DNA of 64,000 bases from Marinifilum caeruleilacunae. Its GTDB lineage: Bacteria; Bacteroidota; Bacteroidia; Bacteroidales; Marinifilaceae. The stretch covers positions 88,744 through 152,743 of the forward strand of contig NZ_RZNH01000007.1 of NCBI RefSeq assembly GCF_013141825.1, written 5' to 3'. Positions 13,110 through 34,620 of this stretch are shown here, piece after piece; within the stretch, counting starts at the first letter, position 1, and each line of letters begins with the position of its first letter. The notes below the pieces were generated by a model. That model was not told where the DNA came from. It ran no database searches and saw only the letters and a list, made by a program, of their open reading frames with translations. The translations under genes were made by a program, and so were the position numbers.

Positions 13110-14462
13110 TTATTTTATCCAGCCTTTGAATCTAAATTTAGCATTCTTGTAAGAATCATCGATGTGTACGTAGGTGTTGGCCTGTTTATCTTTGATCCAT
13201 TTATTAAGGATGTCTTGCTGTTTTTTGCTTGTGAGCATATTTTCAAAAATGCTCCAGTCGTCGGAAAGGTTCGCAGCGTGAGCTTTTGTTTCCGATTTTA
13301 TTTTAATGATTTTATAAGCATCCTTACCTCCCGAAACATCAAGGAATGGTTCAGAAATTTCATTAATTTTTAAAGTGTTTACTTGCTGAGCAATTGCCGG
13401 AGGCAAGTTGTCTTTTTCGAATTTCGATGAGCCAGTATATGGGTTTACAATTAAACCACCATTGTTTCTTGTATCCTTATCGGCAGAGAAATAGAATGCA
13501 GCTTCGTCGAATTCCAGTTTTTCGCTGCGAATTAAATCGGCAATACTATCTAAACGCGAACTAGCTTGTTCTCTTTTTGCTTCTTCAATTTTTGGTTTCA
13601 GCAAGATGTGACGCACATTAATACGTTCCCCTTTACGATCGATAAATTGAATGATATGGAAACCGAATTCCGTTTCAACAATTTTCGAAACTTTATCGGT
13701 TTTTAGGTTGAAGGCAACGTTGGCAAATTCTGGAACCAAGTCTGTTCTTGGCATGTATCCAAGTTCACCACCCTGGCGGGCACTTCCTGGATCTTCAGAA
13801 TAAAGAACGGCCAAAGTGGCAAAGTTTTCACCATTGTGAACCCTGTCTCTAAATCCTCTTAAACGGTTTCTGATTCTGTCTTTTTCATCATCAGTAACCT
13901 GTGGATATCTTACAATTTGTTGTACTTCCAGTTTACCGGCAATCATTGGTAAACTATCCTTGTTCATTTTATTGTAAAACTCTCTTACTTCGGCAGGAGT
14001 AATATGAATGTCTTTCGTAATTTCGGCCTGCATTCTTTCTTTAATCAGTTCGTTACGGTTGTCATCACGCAAGTCGTTCTTCATTTCAAGAAGCGATTTT
14101 CCATAAAACTGTTCCAATTTTTCTTTCGAACCAATTCTTTGAACATACATTTGCATCTTACGTTCAAGATCATTTTCTACTTCTTGTTCCGTTACTTCAA
14201 CACTATCAATCGCAGCTTGGGCAATCATCATTTTTTGAATCAAAAGATCTTCAAAAATTTCTGTTTTTAAATCAACACTACCCGAGGTGTATCCTTGAGC
14301 CTGAAGTTGAAGAAACCTGGTTTCAACATCCGATTTTAATACAACCTGATTACCAACCACGGCAATAATTTTATCGACTACATTGTCCTGAGCAGTTAGA
14401 GTAAGCATACTCATCAACAAGAGTGTAATTGCCATGCAAGTTTTTCTAAAAATGTAACGCAT
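13110..14462 (-). CDS. SurA-type periplasmic peptidylprolyl isomerase/chaperone
   Basis: A 450-residue periplasmic foldase of the SurA family, assisting outer-membrane protein maturation. After a signal peptide (residues 1-24) comes a SurA N-terminal domain beginning VDKIIAVVGNQVVLKSDVETR, then a parvulin-type PpiC domain (about 170-285) with the conserved GGELGYMPRTDLVPEFANVAFNL and EFGFHIIQF motifs, and a second, weaker PpiC-like repeat starting INVRHILLKP. It is the last of three foldase genes in a row (gap of 10 bases from the previous) and is followed by its own terminator. The best surA candidate of the three. Confidence 0.88.
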   Translation of the reverse strand: MRYIFRKTCMAITLLLMSMLTLTAQDNVVDKIIAVVGNQVVLKSDVETRFLQLQAQGYTSGSVDLKTEIFEDLLIQKMMIAQAAIDSVEVTEQEVENDLERKMQMYVQRIGSKEKLEQFYGKSLLEMKNDLRDDNRNELIKERMQAEITKDIHITPAEVREFYNKMNKDSLPMIAGKLEVQQIVRYPQVTDDEKDRIRNRLRGFRDRVHNGENFATLAVLYSEDPGSARQGGELGYMPRTDLVPEFANVAFNLKTDKVSKIVETEFGFHIIQFIDRKGERINVRHILLKPKIEEAKREQASSRLDSIADLIRSEKLEFDEAAFYFSADKDTRNNGGLIVNPYTGSSKFEKDNLPPAIAQQVNTLKINEISEPFLDVSGGKDAYKIIKIKSETKAHAANLSDDWSIFENMLTSKKQQDILNKWIKDKQANTYVHIDDSYKNAKFRFKGWIK

Positions 14463-29121: not shown

Positions 29122-29940
29122 TTAGAATATAATCAGAAAAGATTGTGTAATTAGTTTTTTAAACTTGCTTTTAATGCTTGCTTTGTCGATTCTATGTTTT
29201 GGTTTTTTAGCTGGCACTTGCGTGTGATTTCCCAGTATGATAACTGCAGGGGAGGCAGGAAGTTCTGATGCTTCGATGGTGCTAAAAAATTGTGTATTGC
29301 CACTCAAAATTTCACTATCGCCATAGCTAACTTTCGAAACCACATTGATATGGGTTTCCTTTGAAAGTCGTTGGTTGAGCTCAGCTGCCATTTTGTTCAG
29401 GTTTTCTAATCCCATGTAAATTACGACCGTATCGTTATTTTCGATTTGCTGAACAATGCCATCCAATTCATTTTTTTTGCCACCAACTTTAACGGCTGAG
29501 TGAAAATGAATACCAGATGCTTTTCCCCTTTCAGTAAGCGGAACCCAGAATTCGTTAGCAGCAGCCATTCCAGCACTAATTCCGGGAATCAATTCAAAAT
29601 CCAGTTCCGATTCCAATAGAAATCGAATTTCTTCAACGCCCCTGCCATAAACCATTGGGTCGCCAGATTTTAACCTTACAACCTGATAGCCCAAACTATA
29701 GTATAGGATCATTTGGTTGTGTATGTATTGCTGTCTTGTAACGGGATTTGTTCCATCGCCTGAGCGTTTCCCAACTTCAATTACCTTTGTTTTCTCTGGA
29801 AATAGGTTTCGAACATCTTTGGTAATTAATGCATCAGTTAGAATAACATCTGCCGATTCGATTACTTTTAAAGCTCGTAGTGTAAGAAGATCGGAGGCAC
29901 CGGGGCCGGCACCTACAATCCATATTTTTCCTGTACTCAT
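29122..29940 (-). CDS. cobA: Uroporphyrinogen-III C-methyltransferase
   Basis: SAM-dependent methyltransferase converting uroporphyrinogen III to precorrin-2, the first step towards siroheme, the sulfite reductase cofactor. The roughly 272-residue protein shows VGAGPGASDLLTLRA near the N-terminus, LKSGDPMVYGRGVEE, VIPGISAG-like LIPGISAGMAAAN and VIYMGLENL, all SUMT-family motifs. The reading frame opens with TTG at 29949 but ATG 29940 is the simpler start. It is the last gene of the sulfite reductase operon, 11 bases after cysI. The C-terminal about 25 residues are basic and hydrophobic and not conserved in the family, to my knowledge. Confidence 0.93.
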   Translation of the reverse strand: MSTGKIWIVGAGPGASDLLTLRALKVIESADVILTDALITKDVRNLFPEKTKVIEVGKRSGDGTNPVTRQQYIHNQMILYYSLGYQVVRLKSGDPMVYGRGVEEIRFLLESELDFELIPGISAGMAAANEFWVPLTERGKASGIHFHSAVKVGGKKNELDGIVQQIENNDTVVIYMGLENLNKMAAELNQRLSKETHINVVSKVSYGDSEILSGNTQFFSTIEASELPASPAVIILGNHTQVPAKKPKHRIDKASIKSKFKKLITQSFLIIF

Positions 29941-29951
29941 GCTATTCAAGT

Positions 29952-31658
29952 TTAATGTTTAAAATCTTTTGGGTGTACAATTTCCTGGATGTACTTCTGG
30001 CGAATCACAAAATCTCCAAAATATTCTCCATCAGTTCTATTTTTAGAATAATCTTGAAGAATTGGTCGGAGTTCCTGCAGTATTTCTTCTTCATTTGCAT
30101 TCTCGCGGTACAAATTATTCAGACGAGTGCCATTAAAATTCCCTCCCAGGTAGAGGTTGTATCTGCCTGGACCTTTCCCGATAAATCCAATTTCGGCTAC
30201 ATAGGGTCTTCCACAACCATTGGCACATCCAGTCATTCGAATTACAATTTCATCCTTGAACAGGTTGAATTCTTTTAAGCTGTGCTCAATTTTATCGATC
30301 AAACTTGGCAAGTATCTTTCAGCTTCGGCAAAAGCCAGGCTACAGGTATTTAAGGCAACACAAGCAATCGAATTCGATCTGCTTCCTGATATCGTGTATG
30401 GAAGTGAATCATACTTTTTCAGGATTTCGTTGATCTTGCTCTTGTTTTCACTTTTAATTTTACCAAGAATCAGGTTTTGATTGCCCGACAAACGAAAATC
30501 GGAAATGTTAAGGCTGGCAATTTCGCGCAAAGCAGATTTTACTTTTGCATTCTTTTCATCTTTTACTCTGCCGCCTTCGACGAACAGGCCCAAATACCAC
30601 TCTCCACTTTGGGTCTGATGCCAACCAAATTTATCGCCATTTCGAACCAGTGCGTACTGTCTTTCAGCTTCCAGCTTATAGCCAAGTTTTTCATGCAGCA
30701 ATTCTTTGAATCGTTCTACACCAAGGCGATCGATCGTATATTTTAAACGTGCATTTTTCCTGATCTTTCGATTTCCCTGTTCTTTTTGTACCAAAACAAT
30801 TTTCTCAGCCACATCTACCGTGTTTTCAGCTTTTACAAAGCCCAAAACGGTTCCCAGTCGGGGATAAGTTTCCGTATCGCCGAAAGTGGTTCCCATTCCA
30901 CCACCAGCAACCACGTTAAATCCTTTCAGAATACCATTGTTTTCGATGGCAATAAAGCCTATGTCTTGTGTAAATACATCGGTATCATTAAACGGAGGAA
31001 TAGTAAAACCGATTTTAAATTTTCTTGGCAGATAAACCGGGCCATACAAAGGTTCTACTTCGCCTTGCGATCCTTCCGCCACCTTTTTCTGATCGAGCCA
31101 TATTTCATAATAAGCCGGTGTTCTTGGTGTAAGGTGATCACTCACTTTATTGGCATAATCATGAACCTGATCGAACACATTAGAGCTGTAAGGGTGAGGA
31201 CTGGCCATTACATTTCGGTTCACATCGCCACAAGCTGCAATGGTATCCAGCAATGCTTTGTTGATGGATTGGATACTGGCTTTCAAATTTCCCTTTAAAA
31301 CTCCATGAAATTGAAATGCCTGCCTGGTGGTCAGCTTTAAAGTGCTGTTGGCATATTCATCAGAAATTTGATCCATTTGCAGCCATTGCTCCGCATTTAC
31401 CACACCACCCGGAACTCTTACCCTGATAAGGAAAGAGTAATCGGGTTCCAGTTTGCTTTTTTTTCTTTCTCGTTCGGTATCCCTGTCGAACTGTTGATAA
31501 ATACCATGAAACTTAGATACCTGGCGATCGTCTACAGCAATTGCATCCGTAATTGGATCGGCTAGACTTTCCACTAAGCTTCCTCTAAGGTAATTGCTGT
31601 CCGTTTTAATTTTTTCTACCTCGGACAATTCTGCCCAATTTATATTTTGGTCTGACAT
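29952..31658 (-). CDS. cysI: Sulfite reductase [NADPH] hemoprotein subunit
   Basis: Siroheme/4Fe-4S subunit that reduces sulfite to sulfide with six electrons. The cluster-binding cysteines appear as CVALNTCSLAFAEAERYLP (Cys-x5-Cys) and MTGCANGCGRP (Cys-x3-Cys), closely matching E. coli CysI. Sulfite-binding arginine and lysine regions (KLTTRQAFQFHG, GDVNRNVMASP) are present, and the end GRYNLYLGGNFNGTRLNNLY matches. The ORF opens at 31685, overlapping cysJ, but ATG 31658 (MSDQNINWAEL), 13 bases after the cysJ stop, is the natural start. Partner is the adjacent cysJ; the siroheme genes flank both. Confidence 0.96.
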   Translation of the reverse strand: MSDQNINWAELSEVEKIKTDSNYLRGSLVESLADPITDAIAVDDRQVSKFHGIYQQFDRDTERERKKSKLEPDYSFLIRVRVPGGVVNAEQWLQMDQISDEYANSTLKLTTRQAFQFHGVLKGNLKASIQSINKALLDTIAACGDVNRNVMASPHPYSSNVFDQVHDYANKVSDHLTPRTPAYYEIWLDQKKVAEGSQGEVEPLYGPVYLPRKFKIGFTIPPFNDTDVFTQDIGFIAIENNGILKGFNVVAGGGMGTTFGDTETYPRLGTVLGFVKAENTVDVAEKIVLVQKEQGNRKIRKNARLKYTIDRLGVERFKELLHEKLGYKLEAERQYALVRNGDKFGWHQTQSGEWYLGLFVEGGRVKDEKNAKVKSALREIASLNISDFRLSGNQNLILGKIKSENKSKINEILKKYDSLPYTISGSRSNSIACVALNTCSLAFAEAERYLPSLIDKIEHSLKEFNLFKDEIVIRMTGCANGCGRPYVAEIGFIGKGPGRYNLYLGGNFNGTRLNNLYRENANEEEILQELRPILQDYSKNRTDGEYFGDFVIRQKYIQEIVHPKDFKH

Positions 31659-31671
31659 GATTGTGATTTCT

Positions 31672-33447
31672 TTAGTAAACATCAAGAAGTAATCGCTTCT
31701 CTTTCTTTAATTTTTTTAGATATTCGTCTGCTTTTTCCGCACTTATTCCTCCTTGGGCAGAAATAATTTCTTTCAGGCTATCCTGTACATCTTTGGCCAT
31801 ATTGTTTTTGTCTCCGCAGATATAAAAATGTGCCCCATTTTCGAGCCACTGAAATACCTCACTGGCATTTTGTTGAAGTCTATCTTGCACATATTCTTTC
31901 TCTTTCTGATCGCGCGAAAAAGCAACATCTAATTTGTTTAAAACCCCTTTTTGCAGGTATTTCTGCCATTCAACCTGGTAGAGGAAATCTTCTTTGAATC
32001 GCTGATTTCCAAAGAATAACCAACTATTGGTGTTTTTGTCGTTCTGTTCAATTTCCTGCAAGAAACTTCTGTAAGGAGCAATACCAGTGCCTGCACCAAC
32101 CATGATTATTGGCTTATCTGTTTCTGCAGGCAATCTGAATAGTTCATTTTTATCGATAAAAATTGGAACATGATCACCAACATTAATTTGATCGGACAAG
32201 TAAGTTGAACAAGCACCGTTTCGATCTCTTTTCTTGTGTTTGTATCGTACCGAAGCTACTGTTATGTGCACCTCTTCAGGGTTCTGACTTGGTCCAGAAG
32301 AAATGGAATAGAGACGGGCATACAAAACTCGTAATACAGTAAGGAATTCATCAGTGGTAATTTCTCCAGGAAAATCCTCCAGTAAATCTATGGCATCTGC
32401 TCCGTATAAATATTTGTCAAGTGCATCCTCGTTTTCCAATAAAGCAGTCAAATTTTTATTTTTAACGATCTGATTGTACTTATCGATAACCTCACGGTTT
32501 AATACTGTAATTTCCAGTTTGTGCTGCAATGCTCTAAACAGACTTAAATCTTTACCACCAACATGAACTATTCTTTCTGCATCATCGGCAAAATGTTGAA
32601 TGATTAGATCAACCAGGTCAACAGGGTTATTAGGTAGAATTCCAATGCTATCTCCGGCCTGGTATTCTATTTCTGAATCTTCCAGGGAGATTTCAACATG
32701 GTAAATTTCCTTTTCAGATTGCTCTGTTGTGATTCTTACTTTTTCAAGCACTTCTGCATAATAAGGGTTAGTGCGATTGAACTTCTTCTTTGTGACAGGT
32801 GAGTTTTCAACGCTTGTCGCTTGATTTGAATTGGGTTGAATTTCTTTCAATTCTCCTGCAATTGCTTCAATCCACTTCCCGGCAACTTCTTCGTAAGCAA
32901 CATCAGCTTTATGAATGGGAACAATAGGTGTTCCGCCCAGTTTTTTAAATGCTTCATCGAAATCGACACCAGTCTGGCAATATTTTTTGTACGATTTGTC
33001 GCCTAAAGCCAGTACCGAATATTTTGTTCCTTCTAGCTTAGGTGCTCTCTTTCCCAATACAAACTCATGGAAATCTTCGGCCTGAATTGGTGGTTCGCCT
33101 TCGCCATGTGTGCTTACAATCAGGAAAAGATACTCCTCTTTTTTTAGGTCATTTTTCTTGTATTCATCCAATGCTTTTAGTGCAGGTGTAAATCCTAGTG
33201 CACGTACTCTATCGTACAAATCGAGGGCAATTTCTTTGCTATGCCCGGTATGGGTACCATAAAGAATAGTGATTTTTTCTGAAACTGTTTTTACATTCGC
33301 CAGCTTGGGAATGTTATCATTGTTTATCCCGTTAATCTTACCAGACAGATAGCCATTCAGCCAAATCAACTGTTCCTTTTTCAGATCATGAATCAAGGCA
33401 TCGATTTCTTGTAATTTTTCGGTATTAATTTGATATGGATTTGTCAT
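31672..33447 (-). CDS. cysJ: Sulfite reductase [NADPH] flavoprotein alpha subunit
   Basis: FMN/FAD diflavin reductase passing electrons from NADPH to CysI. The 591-residue product has a flavodoxin domain (TILYGTHTGHSKEIALDLYDR from about residue 60; VSTHGEGEPP), a FAD-binding part with RLYSISSGPSQ and GACSTYLSD, NADP-binding MVGAGTGIAPYRSFLQE, YICGDKNNMAKDVQ, and the conserved end in W/Y (LLLDVY). An N-terminal extension of about 55 residues precedes the flavodoxin domain, as in E. coli CysJ. It is 3 bases downstream of the precorrin-2 dehydrogenase gene. Confidence 0.96.
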   Translation of the reverse strand: MTNPYQINTEKLQEIDALIHDLKKEQLIWLNGYLSGKINGINNDNIPKLANVKTVSEKITILYGTHTGHSKEIALDLYDRVRALGFTPALKALDEYKKNDLKKEEYLFLIVSTHGEGEPPIQAEDFHEFVLGKRAPKLEGTKYSVLALGDKSYKKYCQTGVDFDEAFKKLGGTPIVPIHKADVAYEEVAGKWIEAIAGELKEIQPNSNQATSVENSPVTKKKFNRTNPYYAEVLEKVRITTEQSEKEIYHVEISLEDSEIEYQAGDSIGILPNNPVDLVDLIIQHFADDAERIVHVGGKDLSLFRALQHKLEITVLNREVIDKYNQIVKNKNLTALLENEDALDKYLYGADAIDLLEDFPGEITTDEFLTVLRVLYARLYSISSGPSQNPEEVHITVASVRYKHKKRDRNGACSTYLSDQINVGDHVPIFIDKNELFRLPAETDKPIIMVGAGTGIAPYRSFLQEIEQNDKNTNSWLFFGNQRFKEDFLYQVEWQKYLQKGVLNKLDVAFSRDQKEKEYVQDRLQQNASEVFQWLENGAHFYICGDKNNMAKDVQDSLKEIISAQGGISAEKADEYLKKLKKEKRLLLDVY

Positions 33448-33450
33448 GAT

Positions 33451-33927
33451 TTAGTTTGCAATTAGTAATTTTTGAAGTCTGTAGTTTTCGAAATAATCTT
33501 TCAGTTGATTTCGAATTTGTATCGATTTGAAAACATCTTCGCCATTTGAACTTACGGCAATACTCAAATTGCCTTTCTTGTAGATGGCCGGAGAAACAAA
33601 TTCACAAAATTCTGGTTGGTCGTGAACATTGAGCAGTACATTTGCTTCATTACAATCCCTGATCAACTGGCGAACAAAAGCTGGATCATCAACACAGCTA
33701 TAAATCAGGTAGTAATCGCTCAGAAACTTTTTATCATACTGTTGTTCATGATATTTAATGCCTGAATTCTTGATCCAACTGATAATGTTTGGCGCAAGTA
33801 CTTCTAATAAATCGGTACTTCTCTGTAATATTTTTAATTTTTTGTAGGCATCTTCGCCACCTCCAATAATCAGTATTTTCTTATTGGTGATATCTATTGC
33901 TATGGGTAAAAATTGCTTCTTCGACAT
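33451..33927 (-). CDS. Precorrin-2 dehydrogenase / sirohydrochlorin ferrochelatase-type protein
   Basis: A 158-residue Met8p/CysG N-terminal domain protein. It has the NAD-binding Rossmann motif ITNKKILIIGGGEDAYKKLKIL near the N-terminus and FVSPAIYKKGNLSIAVSSNGEDVF, the family active-site stretch. It should oxidise precorrin-2 to sirohydrochlorin and, in bifunctional members, insert iron. Unlike E. coli CysG it is not fused to the methyltransferase, which is a separate gene at the operon end. The length is shorter than full-length Met8p-type proteins (about 200), so ferrochelatase activity is uncertain. Confidence 0.88.
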   Translation of the reverse strand: MSKKQFLPIAIDITNKKILIIGGGEDAYKKLKILQRSTDLLEVLAPNIISWIKNSGIKYHEQQYDKKFLSDYYLIYSCVDDPAFVRQLIRDCNEANVLLNVHDQPEFCEFVSPAIYKKGNLSIAVSSNGEDVFKSIQIRNQLKDYFENYRLQKLLIAN

Positions 33928-33937
33928 GATTTTTGCT

Positions 33938-34168
33938 TTAAATGTGATAATCTATTGGATGTTTCTCCTCCTTGCCAAACTTGATCTTATTCCAGGTTCT
34001 TTCATGAATAAAATAGAGTCCCATTTTTGTGAATAATTCGACTCCACCTATCGACATTGCCCATGTTATATCTCCAATAATCAGCCAGGAAATTAATATG
34101 GTATCGAGGGTGCCAACCGTTCTCCACGAAATTGTTTTTGCAATGCTTCTGTATGTATTTTCTCTCAT
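33938..34168 (-). CDS. DUF2061 membrane protein
   Basis: A 76-residue DUF2061 protein with the core SIAKTISWRTVGTLDTILISWLIIGDITWAMSIGGVELFTKMGLYFIHERTWNKI split between two membrane helices (about residues 18-35 and 40-58). Function is unknown; in several Bacteroidota and proteobacteria it occurs beside sulfate-assimilation genes. Here it is the first structural gene of the sulfite reductase operon, 10 bases upstream of the precorrin-2 dehydrogenase and 17 bases after a terminator in the leader, so its expression depends on escaping that terminator. A sulfur-related transport or membrane role is inference from context. Confidence 0.85.
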   Translation of the reverse strand: MRENTYRSIAKTISWRTVGTLDTILISWLIIGDITWAMSIGGVELFTKMGLYFIHERTWNKIKFGKEEKHPIDYHI

Positions 34169-34185: not shown

Positions 34186-34219
34186 AAAAAAAGAGCCTTT
34201 CTGGTTCGCAGAAAGGCTC
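34186..34219 (-). terminator. Leader terminator 2 (attenuator) before the sulfite reductase operon
   Basis: Minus strand stem GAGCCTTTCTG / CAGAAAGGCTC (34219-34209 with 34203-34193, loop CGAAC) followed by seven T. It lies after the second Cys-rich leader peptide and 17 bases before the DUF2061 ATG. Standing inside the operon leader it would abort transcription unless prevented. A weaker alternative pairing of UUCGUUAUGC with GCGUACCGAG just upstream would overlap its 5' arm. Confidence 0.85.
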
Positions 34220-34255
34220 GGTACGCTTGGTCATTTATATGCATAACGAAATCTG

Positions 34256-34339
34256 CTAAGGTGGATACCATAACATACACATACAACAACATACAGCTTG
34301 CTGATAAATTAAATTGATATGTGATTTCTCGTTCTTCAT
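34256..34339 (-). CDS. Cys-rich leader peptide 2 (27 codons)
   Basis: A 27-codon ORF, starting MKNEKSHINLIYQQ and ending AVCCCMCMLWYPP, with four UGU codons (residues 17-19 and 21) near its end, followed by stop TAG. It lies 36 bases upstream of the second leader terminator and downstream of the first. Cys is the rarest amino acid in most proteins, so four Cys codons within five positions is a deliberate signal rather than a working protein. A longer frame reaches back to an ATG at 34444 but overlaps the first terminator, so the short start is preferred. Role as a cysteine-sensing leader peptide is inference. Confidence 0.7.
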   Translation of the reverse strand: MKNEKSHINLIYQQAVCCCMCMLWYPP

Positions 34340-34391
34340 TTGATCTGTGATGCTTGTCTGATCTTCTAAGATAAATTGTATTGATTTCCAT

Positions 34392-34425
34392 AAAAAAAGC
34401 CTTTTTGCGTTTGCAAAAAGGCTTT
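34392..34425 (-). terminator. Leader terminator 1 (attenuator) before the sulfite reductase operon
   Basis: Minus strand stem AAAGCCTTTTTGC / GCAAAAAGGCTTT (34425-34413 with 34408-34396, 4-nt loop) running into a T tract (34397-34391). It comes 25 bases after the stop of the first leader peptide. The 5' arm CCUUUUUGCAA can alternatively pair with UUGCAGAAAGG at 34471-34461 in the leader ORF, giving an antiterminator of 11 pairs including one G-U. Confidence 0.85.
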
Positions 34426-34450
34426 GTGCTTTTATTGTGTCCAATTCTGA

Positions 34451-34546
34451 CTAAACAATTCCTTTCTGCAATACATGATTATCCCAACACATACAACAAG
34501 TACATGCAAGAGAAGAAGCAAATGTATTTTCAAGAGTAAATTTCAT
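34451..34546 (-). CDS. Cys-rich leader peptide 1 (31 codons)
   Basis: A 31-codon ORF (MKFTLENTFASSLACTCCMCW then DNHVLQKGIV, stop TAG) with four UGU codons at residues 15, 17, 18 and 20. It begins roughly 36 bases after the predicted transcription start and ends 25 bases before a strong intrinsic terminator. The segment spanning codons 26-29 (UUG CAG AAA GG) is complementary to the 5' arm of that terminator. A ribosome waiting at the Cys codons would leave this segment free and allow the antiterminator; one that reaches the stop would cover it. It is too short for the usual ORF cut-offs. Function as an attenuation leader is inference from this layout. Confidence 0.72.
   Translation of the reverse strand: MKFTLENTFASSLACTCCMCWDNHVLQKGIV
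34461..34471 (-). promoter_or_regulatory. Antiterminator arm inside leader peptide 1
   Basis: UUGCAGAAAGG on the RNA, 15 nt downstream of the last Cys codon of leader 1, can pair with CCUUUUUGCAA of terminator 1 (11 pairs, one G-U wobble). GCAGAAAGG is also a perfect 9-nt complement of CCUUUCUGC in terminator 2, which may be a relic of module duplication or a second regulatory option. Confidence 0.6.
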
Positions 34547-34588: not shown

Positions 34589-34620
34589 CAATGTTATGAA
34601 GTTATTTTGAATATTACAAA
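34589..34620 (-). promoter_or_regulatory. Bacteroidetes-type promoter of the sulfite reductase operon
   Basis: Minus strand TTTG (34620-34617), 20-bp spacer, TAACATTG (34596-34589), one mismatch from the TTTG-N19-21-TAnnTTTG consensus. Transcription would begin near 34582, about 36 nt before leader peptide 1, so both leader modules and all five genes would share one transcript. Confidence 0.6.

Follow-up and report, generated by a model that had tools for sequence, protein, structure and literature searches.

The sulfite reductase operon of Marinifilum is very probably governed by two ribosome-mediated transcription attenuators placed in series. The window, i.e. the whole 64-kb stretch of DNA that was analyzed, contains two modules ahead of this operon. 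Each of them consists of a cluster of codons for the amino acid that the pathway yields, a terminator between the leader ORF and the genes, and a competing antiterminator, which in module 2 is weak by the duplex test described below. This reading draws on the parts and how well they are conserved, on alternative pairings that are maintained as the sequences change, and on the predicted influence of ribosome position while the terminator is still incomplete. Behind the modules, the genes follow on the minus strand in the order DUF2061-Met8-CysJ-CysI-SUMT (Table 1); their functions were inferred wherever the name goes beyond the Pfam domain. Sulfite reductase supplies cysteine synthesis, an established pathway, and for this reason the product of the operon fits the codon that is clustered in the leaders. 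An earlier note on this DNA had correctly described the attenuator parts of module 1, but its account was incomplete, as it left out module 2, which follows in series (34339-34186).

Table 1. Positions in the window of the likely promoter, the parts of both attenuator modules and the genes of the operon, in order of transcription.
Feature	Position	Strand	Evidence or remark
Likely promoter, TTG-N20-TAnnnTTG	34589..34619	-	window and 12/12 named Marinifilaceae relatives
Leader ORF 1, MKFTLENTFASSLACTCCMCWDNHVLQKGIV, including stop	34451..34546	-	sequence and translation; counterpart in 12/12 named Marinifilaceae loci
Regulatory codons of leader 1: Cys 15, 17, 18, 20 (Met 19 between)	34487..34504	-	Cys cluster retained by relatives
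Antiterminator arm 1, UUGCAGAAAGG, codons 26-29	34461..34471	-	11 pairs with the T1 5' arm
Intrinsic terminator T1 (13-bp stem 34425-34396 and T-run)	34392..34425	-	present in 12/12 relatives
Leader ORF 2, MKNEKSHINLIYQQAVCCCMCMLWYPP, including stop	34256..34339	-	counterpart in 12/12 named Marinifilaceae loci
Regulatory codons of leader 2: Cys 17, 18, 19, 21 (Met 20 between)	34277..34291	-	near-invariant in the alignment
Antiterminator arm 2, GCAGAUUUCGUUAUGC	34241..34256	-	its first base is the final one of the leader 2 stop codon; pairs with 34226-34208
Partner of antiterminator arm 2, GCGUACCGAGCCUUUCUGC	34208..34226	-	overlaps the T2 5' arm
Intrinsic terminator T2 (11-bp stem 34219-34193 and T-run)	34186..34219	-	100% of cells paired, 13 sequences
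DUF2061 membrane protein, first structural gene	33938..34168	-	PF09834, E 3.3e-21
Met8/CysG-N type siroheme-synthesis protein (name inferred)	33451..33927	-	PF13241 NAD_binding_7
CysJ-like sulfite reductase flavoprotein	31672..33447	-	PF00667, PF00258, PF00175
CysI-like sulfite reductase hemoprotein	29952..31685	-	PF01077, PF03460
SUMT, uroporphyrinogen methyltransferase-like (name inferred)	29122..29949	-	PF00590 TP_methylase

Leader 1 carries four Cys codons inside six codons, ahead of the sulfite reductase genes. The 31-codon ORF with UGU at codons 15, 17, 18 and 20 that the earlier note had reported was confirmed at the base level (34546-34451, minus strand), and so was the 13-bp terminator with its T tract 25 nt past the leader stop (stem 34425-34396), the loop of which is 4 nt long. 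The alternative pairing proposed there between codons 26-29 and the 5' arm of the terminator was also borne out, since UUGCAGAAAGG (34471-34461) and CCUUUUUGCAA (34421-34411) form 11 pairs, one of them G-U. The duplex between the tail of leader 1 and the T1 arm reached -18.4 kcal/mol, whereas dinucleotide-shuffled versions of the ORF tail averaged -9.4, and not one of the 300 shuffles matched the real one (p 0.003, the floor of the test). Folding of the 181-nt leader of module 1 also surpassed that of its shuffles (z -2.59), 2 of 200 being as good. Module 2 spans 34339-34186, with the DUF2061 gene next to it, and its leader carries four Cys codons inside five codons. Here, the antiterminator is a longer, interrupted helix, formed by GCAGA, UUCG and UAUGC with GCGUA, CGAG and UCUGC. 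The simple duplex test was not significant for module 2 of the window (p 0.24).

When both strands of the window were scanned for a short Cys-clustered ORF with a nearby terminator, exactly two modules were returned, lying about 210 bp apart. The plain Cys-Cys-Met-Cys pattern (TGYTGYATGTGY) was discarded as too loose: it had 8 matches in the Marinifilum genome, and ATG-started short ORFs were present only at the two modules. No module was detected at the other sulfur loci of this genome, namely cysDN (L111), a PAPS-reductase-like gene (L112) and an OAH sulfhydrylase (L195), and the stretch ahead of cysDN gave no convincing Rfam match. A terminator without a Cys leader lies about 280 bp before the cysD-like gene (L111 7984-8009); it may simply be the end of the upstream gene. 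The leader peptides matched no NCBIfam model and are therefore probably unannotated in most genomes.

A promoter-like motif predicted from the sequence is located 43-73 bp ahead of the start codon of leader 1. It resembles TAnnTTTG, which is given as the Bacteroidota -7 motif in the available part of one study (PMC9723704). No match to the promoter pattern was found from T1 to the end of leader 2. As there is a single likely promoter upstream and no second match in that interval, one transcript passing two attenuators is the simplest reading, and the position of the motif suggests a predicted 5' UTR ahead of leader 1. Upstream of this promoter, at window positions 34682-34665, we observed an 18-bp perfect palindrome, TTCGTAATCGATTACGAA. 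Its 16-bp core occurred only in loci of the same genome and in none of the fetched relatives.

The named genomes provided 41 DUF2061 loci, 12 of which belong to Marinifilaceae (six Marinifilum, one unclassified and five Labilibaculum). Both leaders and both terminators were present in all 12. The scripted search detected leader 1 in 12/12 and leader 2 in 11/12, leader 2 of the last locus (L071) being identified separately. A single module only was found in Sunxiuqinia (L078) and Gaoshiqia (L079). In the remaining 27 of the 41 loci (Campylobacterota, Flavobacteriaceae and others), the same search came up without a Cys leader, indicating that the leader does not track the DUF2061 gene; a wider role for DUF2061 with the leader was rejected on this ground. 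The Cys run, whose conservation in relatives the earlier note had named as a check, was kept in 12/12 named Marinifilaceae loci. Leader residues beyond this run and the antiterminator codons drift, so that N-terminal residues change and the Cys cluster is kept.

The pairings are maintained as well. Across 13 sequences, 98.4% of the cells of antiterminator 1 were paired and two pairs were changed on both sides, which are the compensatory changes between codons 26-29 and the terminator arm that the earlier note had looked to. The covariation score of this helix exceeded that of all 500 shuffles, and its number of double-changed pairs was reached in 44 of them. For antiterminator 2, 98.9% of the cells were paired in 13 sequences, with one pair exchanged (C-G/U-A) between genera; the score was again above all shuffles and the number of double changes was reached in 193/500. 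T1 was paired in 97.2% of its cells, and the fully paired T2 (Table 1) included one C-G/U-A exchange. Shifting the partner by 1 to 3 columns lowered the pairing of the antiterminators to 18-66%. Because the double changes represent few events, the case leans on constant pairing more than on covariation. When the duplex test of leader tail and terminator arm was applied row by row to Marinifilaceae, counting each peptide once and with L078 outside the criteria, p was 0.05 or less in 10/11 for module 1 and in 2/11 for module 2.

We then considered the ribosome, which was modelled as covering 13 nt past the A-site codon (an assumed value), on RNA made only as far as the terminator loop. In module 1, the 5' arm of T1 paired upstream with a probability of 0.84 at all four Cys-codon stalls, versus 0.34 with the ribosome at the stop codon, and the stalled value was reached by 0.7-3.0% of resampled sequences. 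In module 2, upstream pairing amounted to 0.53-0.59 with the ribosome at a Cys codon versus 0.11 at the stop, the stalled value being reached by 12-26% of resampled sequences. Folding predicted while the terminator is incomplete is thus consistent with a switch in which stalling would expose the arm and reaching the stop would hide it; the agreement is clear in module 1 and weak in module 2. Once the terminator was complete, equilibrium folding gave it a probability of 0.95-1.00 in every ribosome state, the stalled ones included. The switch must therefore be kinetic. The earlier note's proposal that a Cys stall frees the arm and the stop covers it holds in the model as long as the terminator is incomplete, but not at equilibrium, where the terminator always wins.

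The same model indicated that ribosome-free module 1, before the 3' arm exists, also pairs upstream with a probability of 0.84. Such antiterminator formation, modelled with no ribosome present and the terminator still unfinished, would be expected of a ligand- or protein-responsive RNA (a riboswitch, a T-box or the target of an RNA-binding protein) in which the ORF is incidental. We regard such an element as very improbable, as the Rfam search of the window returned 0 families at gathering score, and as distant clades share codon composition and not RNA fold, the 24 modules described below having different terminators.

Under ribosome-mediated attenuation, we infer a cysteine response built on leader translation, stalling, kinetic capture and premature transcript ends. 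RNA polymerase would begin upstream of leader 1, and a ribosome would follow, translating each leader. With ample Cys-tRNA, the ribosome would reach the stop codon and cover the antiterminator arm (codons 26-29 in leader 1, the bases at and past the stop in leader 2); the terminator would then form and transcription would end. With scarce Cys-tRNA, the ribosome would stall in the Cys run, and the free arm would capture the 5' arm of the terminator before the 3' arm has been transcribed, allowing transcription to continue. Since both terminators must be passed, a steeper response than that of one attenuator is expected.

We searched for similar modules across the phylum. CysI was found in 14/295 sampled genomes of the order and in 39/395 of the phylum, our own genome included. 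With this genome excluded, 14 CysI stretches were taken from 13 genomes of the order and 38 from 38 genomes of the phylum. A module was defined by 5 or more Cys/Met codons in a stretch of 8, 2 or more of them Cys, and a terminator within 120 nt. The 52 stretches (931,494 bp) contained 24 Cys/Met-rich modules, distributed over 18 of them. All 24 were on the strand of CysI; 20 were located upstream of CysI and four, from two genomes, upstream of an OAH sulfhydrylase. The scan produced 0 matches in three order-1 Markov resamplings of the 931,494 bp, and its single match in 59 other loci (263,525 bp) was the module of L113, reached from another locus. By family, modules were counted in 9/12 of f142, 4/5 of f124, 3/3 of f170 and 1/1 of f158 (a doubtful case), with one in f97. 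Among the remaining f142 stretches, two had a leader ORF but no terminator by our criteria and one was cut at the contig end. The remaining 13 genomes of the class and the remaining 13 stretches of the order had no module, nor did f131 (0/3) or f154 (0/1). The distribution of the module is patchy, not universal. One counted module (L144) has an ORF that shares its stop with a longer ORF and shows poor complementarity (p 0.33), and two stretches (L145 and L161) encode an identical peptide.

The genes behind these leaders vary. In L137, tandem leaders stand before a PAPS-reductase-family gene and then CysD and CysN, and in L138 a leader precedes serine acetyltransferase-like and cysteine synthase-like genes, then SUMT-CysJ-CysI. 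The leader lies before a rhodanese and then CysI-SUMT in L142, L151 and L152, before a glutamyl-tRNA reductase and then DUF2061-Met8-CysJ-CysI in L113, and before SUMT in L135. In a second setting in L138, it is found ahead of an OAH sulfhydrylase accompanied by OsmC, abhydrolase and homoserine dehydrogenase. An OAH sulfhydrylase query matched 155/198 genomes. In 50 stretches examined around this gene, a leader (here at least 4 Cys/Met in 8) was present within 800 bp upstream in 11, three of them in tandem, and no match was found on the opposite strand. Tandem leader-terminator pairs were also noticed in family f124 (L135, L137, L165, L168, L169), where they stand before SUMT, a PAPS-reductase-family gene or an OAH sulfhydrylase. 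SAM-II and SAM-I riboswitches occur near Cys/Met leaders at L138 1448-1527 (minus strand) and 13986-14092 (plus strand) and at L168 583-689 (minus strand); as the riboswitches adjoin the leaders, these genomes combine both in sulfur metabolism.

The codon run had been described in the earlier note as one of Cys only. This is correct for Marinifilaceae, but elsewhere the runs are made of Cys and Met, as in the mixed leader MKNNNKMCCMMMMCMCAPP. The share of Met among Cys and Met was 0.47 in 23 cysteine-type peptides versus 0.57 in 14 methionine-type peptides (Mann-Whitney p 0.018), a difference that is a hint only, because the peptides were hand-picked and are related. Outside Marinifilaceae, the mixed runs suggest sensing of both sulfur amino acids. 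A Trp codon was often seen in or just after the run (CCMCW, CMLW, CCMMW, CKMMW, MCWMC), for instance in leaders 1 and 2 of the window and in L138 and L113.

Alternative pairings were also found outside Marinifilaceae. In f142, the leaders end in codons (GSG, DSG, KVVE) whose bases form GGUAGUGG-like arms complementary to the terminator arm. Across 9 sequences, all 72 cells of this helix were paired, with two double-changed pairs, a number reached in 12/500 shuffles, and the duplex test gave p 0.003-0.027 for the nine f142 leaders. The test missed L079 (0.61), L144 (0.33), L145 (0.26), L162 (0.07), L206 (0.23) and L212 (0.21). Rows named as likely chance after the fact (L118, L149, the plus strand of L152, L156, the first of L157, L175 and L176) ranged from p 0.21 to 0.98. 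Own and foreign terminator arms were compared for 25 leaders, obtained from 18 of 19 chosen loci (L078 gave none). The tails of 23 of these leaders paired better with their own arm than with the median foreign arm, and 15 were in the best tenth; the two without this advantage were those of Gaoshiqia (L079) and L113.

These comparisons also bear on readings in which the peptide itself matters. A Cys/Met-rich nascent peptide, for example metal-bound or oxidised, might arrest the ribosome irrespective of codon supply: Cys/Met-rich stretches such as MCCMMMMCMC look like metal-binding runs of thiols and thioethers, and the Marinifilaceae peptides are alike around the Cys run. However, arrest peptides usually require a fixed sequence, whereas the order of Cys and Met varies inside one family (MCVMCMCCCMCMP, MCCMMCCRMP, MMCCMCMIIGSG). 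Furthermore, the 24 modules of the CysI areas precede CysI (20) or an OAH sulfhydrylase (4), with no metal-resistance neighbour identified, and we consider peptide arrest highly unlikely. A small functional Cys-rich protein of the metallothionein type, encoded before the terminators and translated without regulatory role, is more unlikely still, for although the peptides are unusually rich in Cys and conserved, everything in them apart from the Cys run and the antiterminator codons is free to drift, their last codons (LQKG, MQKG, LQEG; GSG, DSG and KVVE in f142) track the terminator arm and not a protein motif, and NCBIfam holds no match for them.

Attenuation by leader translation could accordingly extend well beyond Marinifilum. 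We lean, with caution, towards a phylum-wide sulfur-amino-acid regulon of Bacteroidota, in which mixed Cys/Met leaders, often in tandem, would sense Cys-tRNA and Met-tRNA, with their last codons doubling as antiterminator, before operons for sulfite reductase, sulfate activation, cysteine synthase and OAH sulfhydrylase.

The trp, his, leu, ilv and thr operons are controlled by ribosome-mediated transcription attenuators. As in these classical systems, the Marinifilum modules combine a short leader ORF containing codons for the pathway product, an intrinsic terminator and a competing antiterminator. They differ in that two full modules stand in series, in their Cys codons (with Met in other clades) and in their occurrence in Bacteroidota, and also in the site of the antiterminator arm, which is found within the final codons of the ORF or at the stop codon. 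Leaderless polycysteine short ORFs were reportedly described in mycobacteria by Canestrari and colleagues in 2020; unlike these, the leader here probably lies away from the predicted 5' end. General statements on ribosome-mediated attenuation of amino-acid operons are found in the accessible parts of PMC1262725 and PMC1183508. The first of these (Seliverstov et al. 2005, PMC1262725) describes, in the text available, Cys-codon runs that precede mycobacterial sulfur genes, with no conserved terminator hairpins, and the mycobacterial polycysteine mechanism is termed translation attenuation in the available part of PMC13236596. As far as these excerpts go, the two systems share runs of Cys codons ahead of sulfur genes, a cysteine response having been proposed or shown in mycobacteria, but differ by the two conserved intrinsic terminators and the conserved antiterminators found here. 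In Salmonella, the mgtCBR operon for Mg2+ transport and virulence has tandem attenuators with two short ORFs in one leader, according to the accessible portion of PMC3641672. Judging from that portion, two short ORFs per leader control the transcription of one operon in both cases, whereas in Marinifilum a separate terminator belongs to each ORF, and the two ORFs contain codons for the same amino acid. Within the same phylum, clues for leader-peptide attenuation ahead of amino-acid biosynthesis operons have been presented for Flavobacterium psychrophilum (PMC9723704); the available text names no cysteine or methionine case among these candidates, and Table S7 of that study may hold one.

We found no recognisable description of a cysteine attenuator in Bacteroidota in the open-licence literature, which leaves most subscription journals and preprints outside, and an earlier description is possible. 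The mechanism is known; it is the lineage, the tandem layout and the composition in Cys and Met for which no description was found in that literature. To our knowledge, cysteine-responsive attenuation is known only from Actinobacteria, in which it lacks conserved intrinsic terminators. The mixed Cys/Met runs point to a single sensor for both sulfur amino acids, comparable to the ilv leaders, which read three branched-chain amino acids. Two modules in series with the same input provide a natural test of what is gained by a tandem arrangement, either a steeper response or a lower leak. For the control of sulfur assimilation in Bacteroidota, the modules offer a direct and testable answer: it would follow the supply of charged tRNA and act at the level of RNA.
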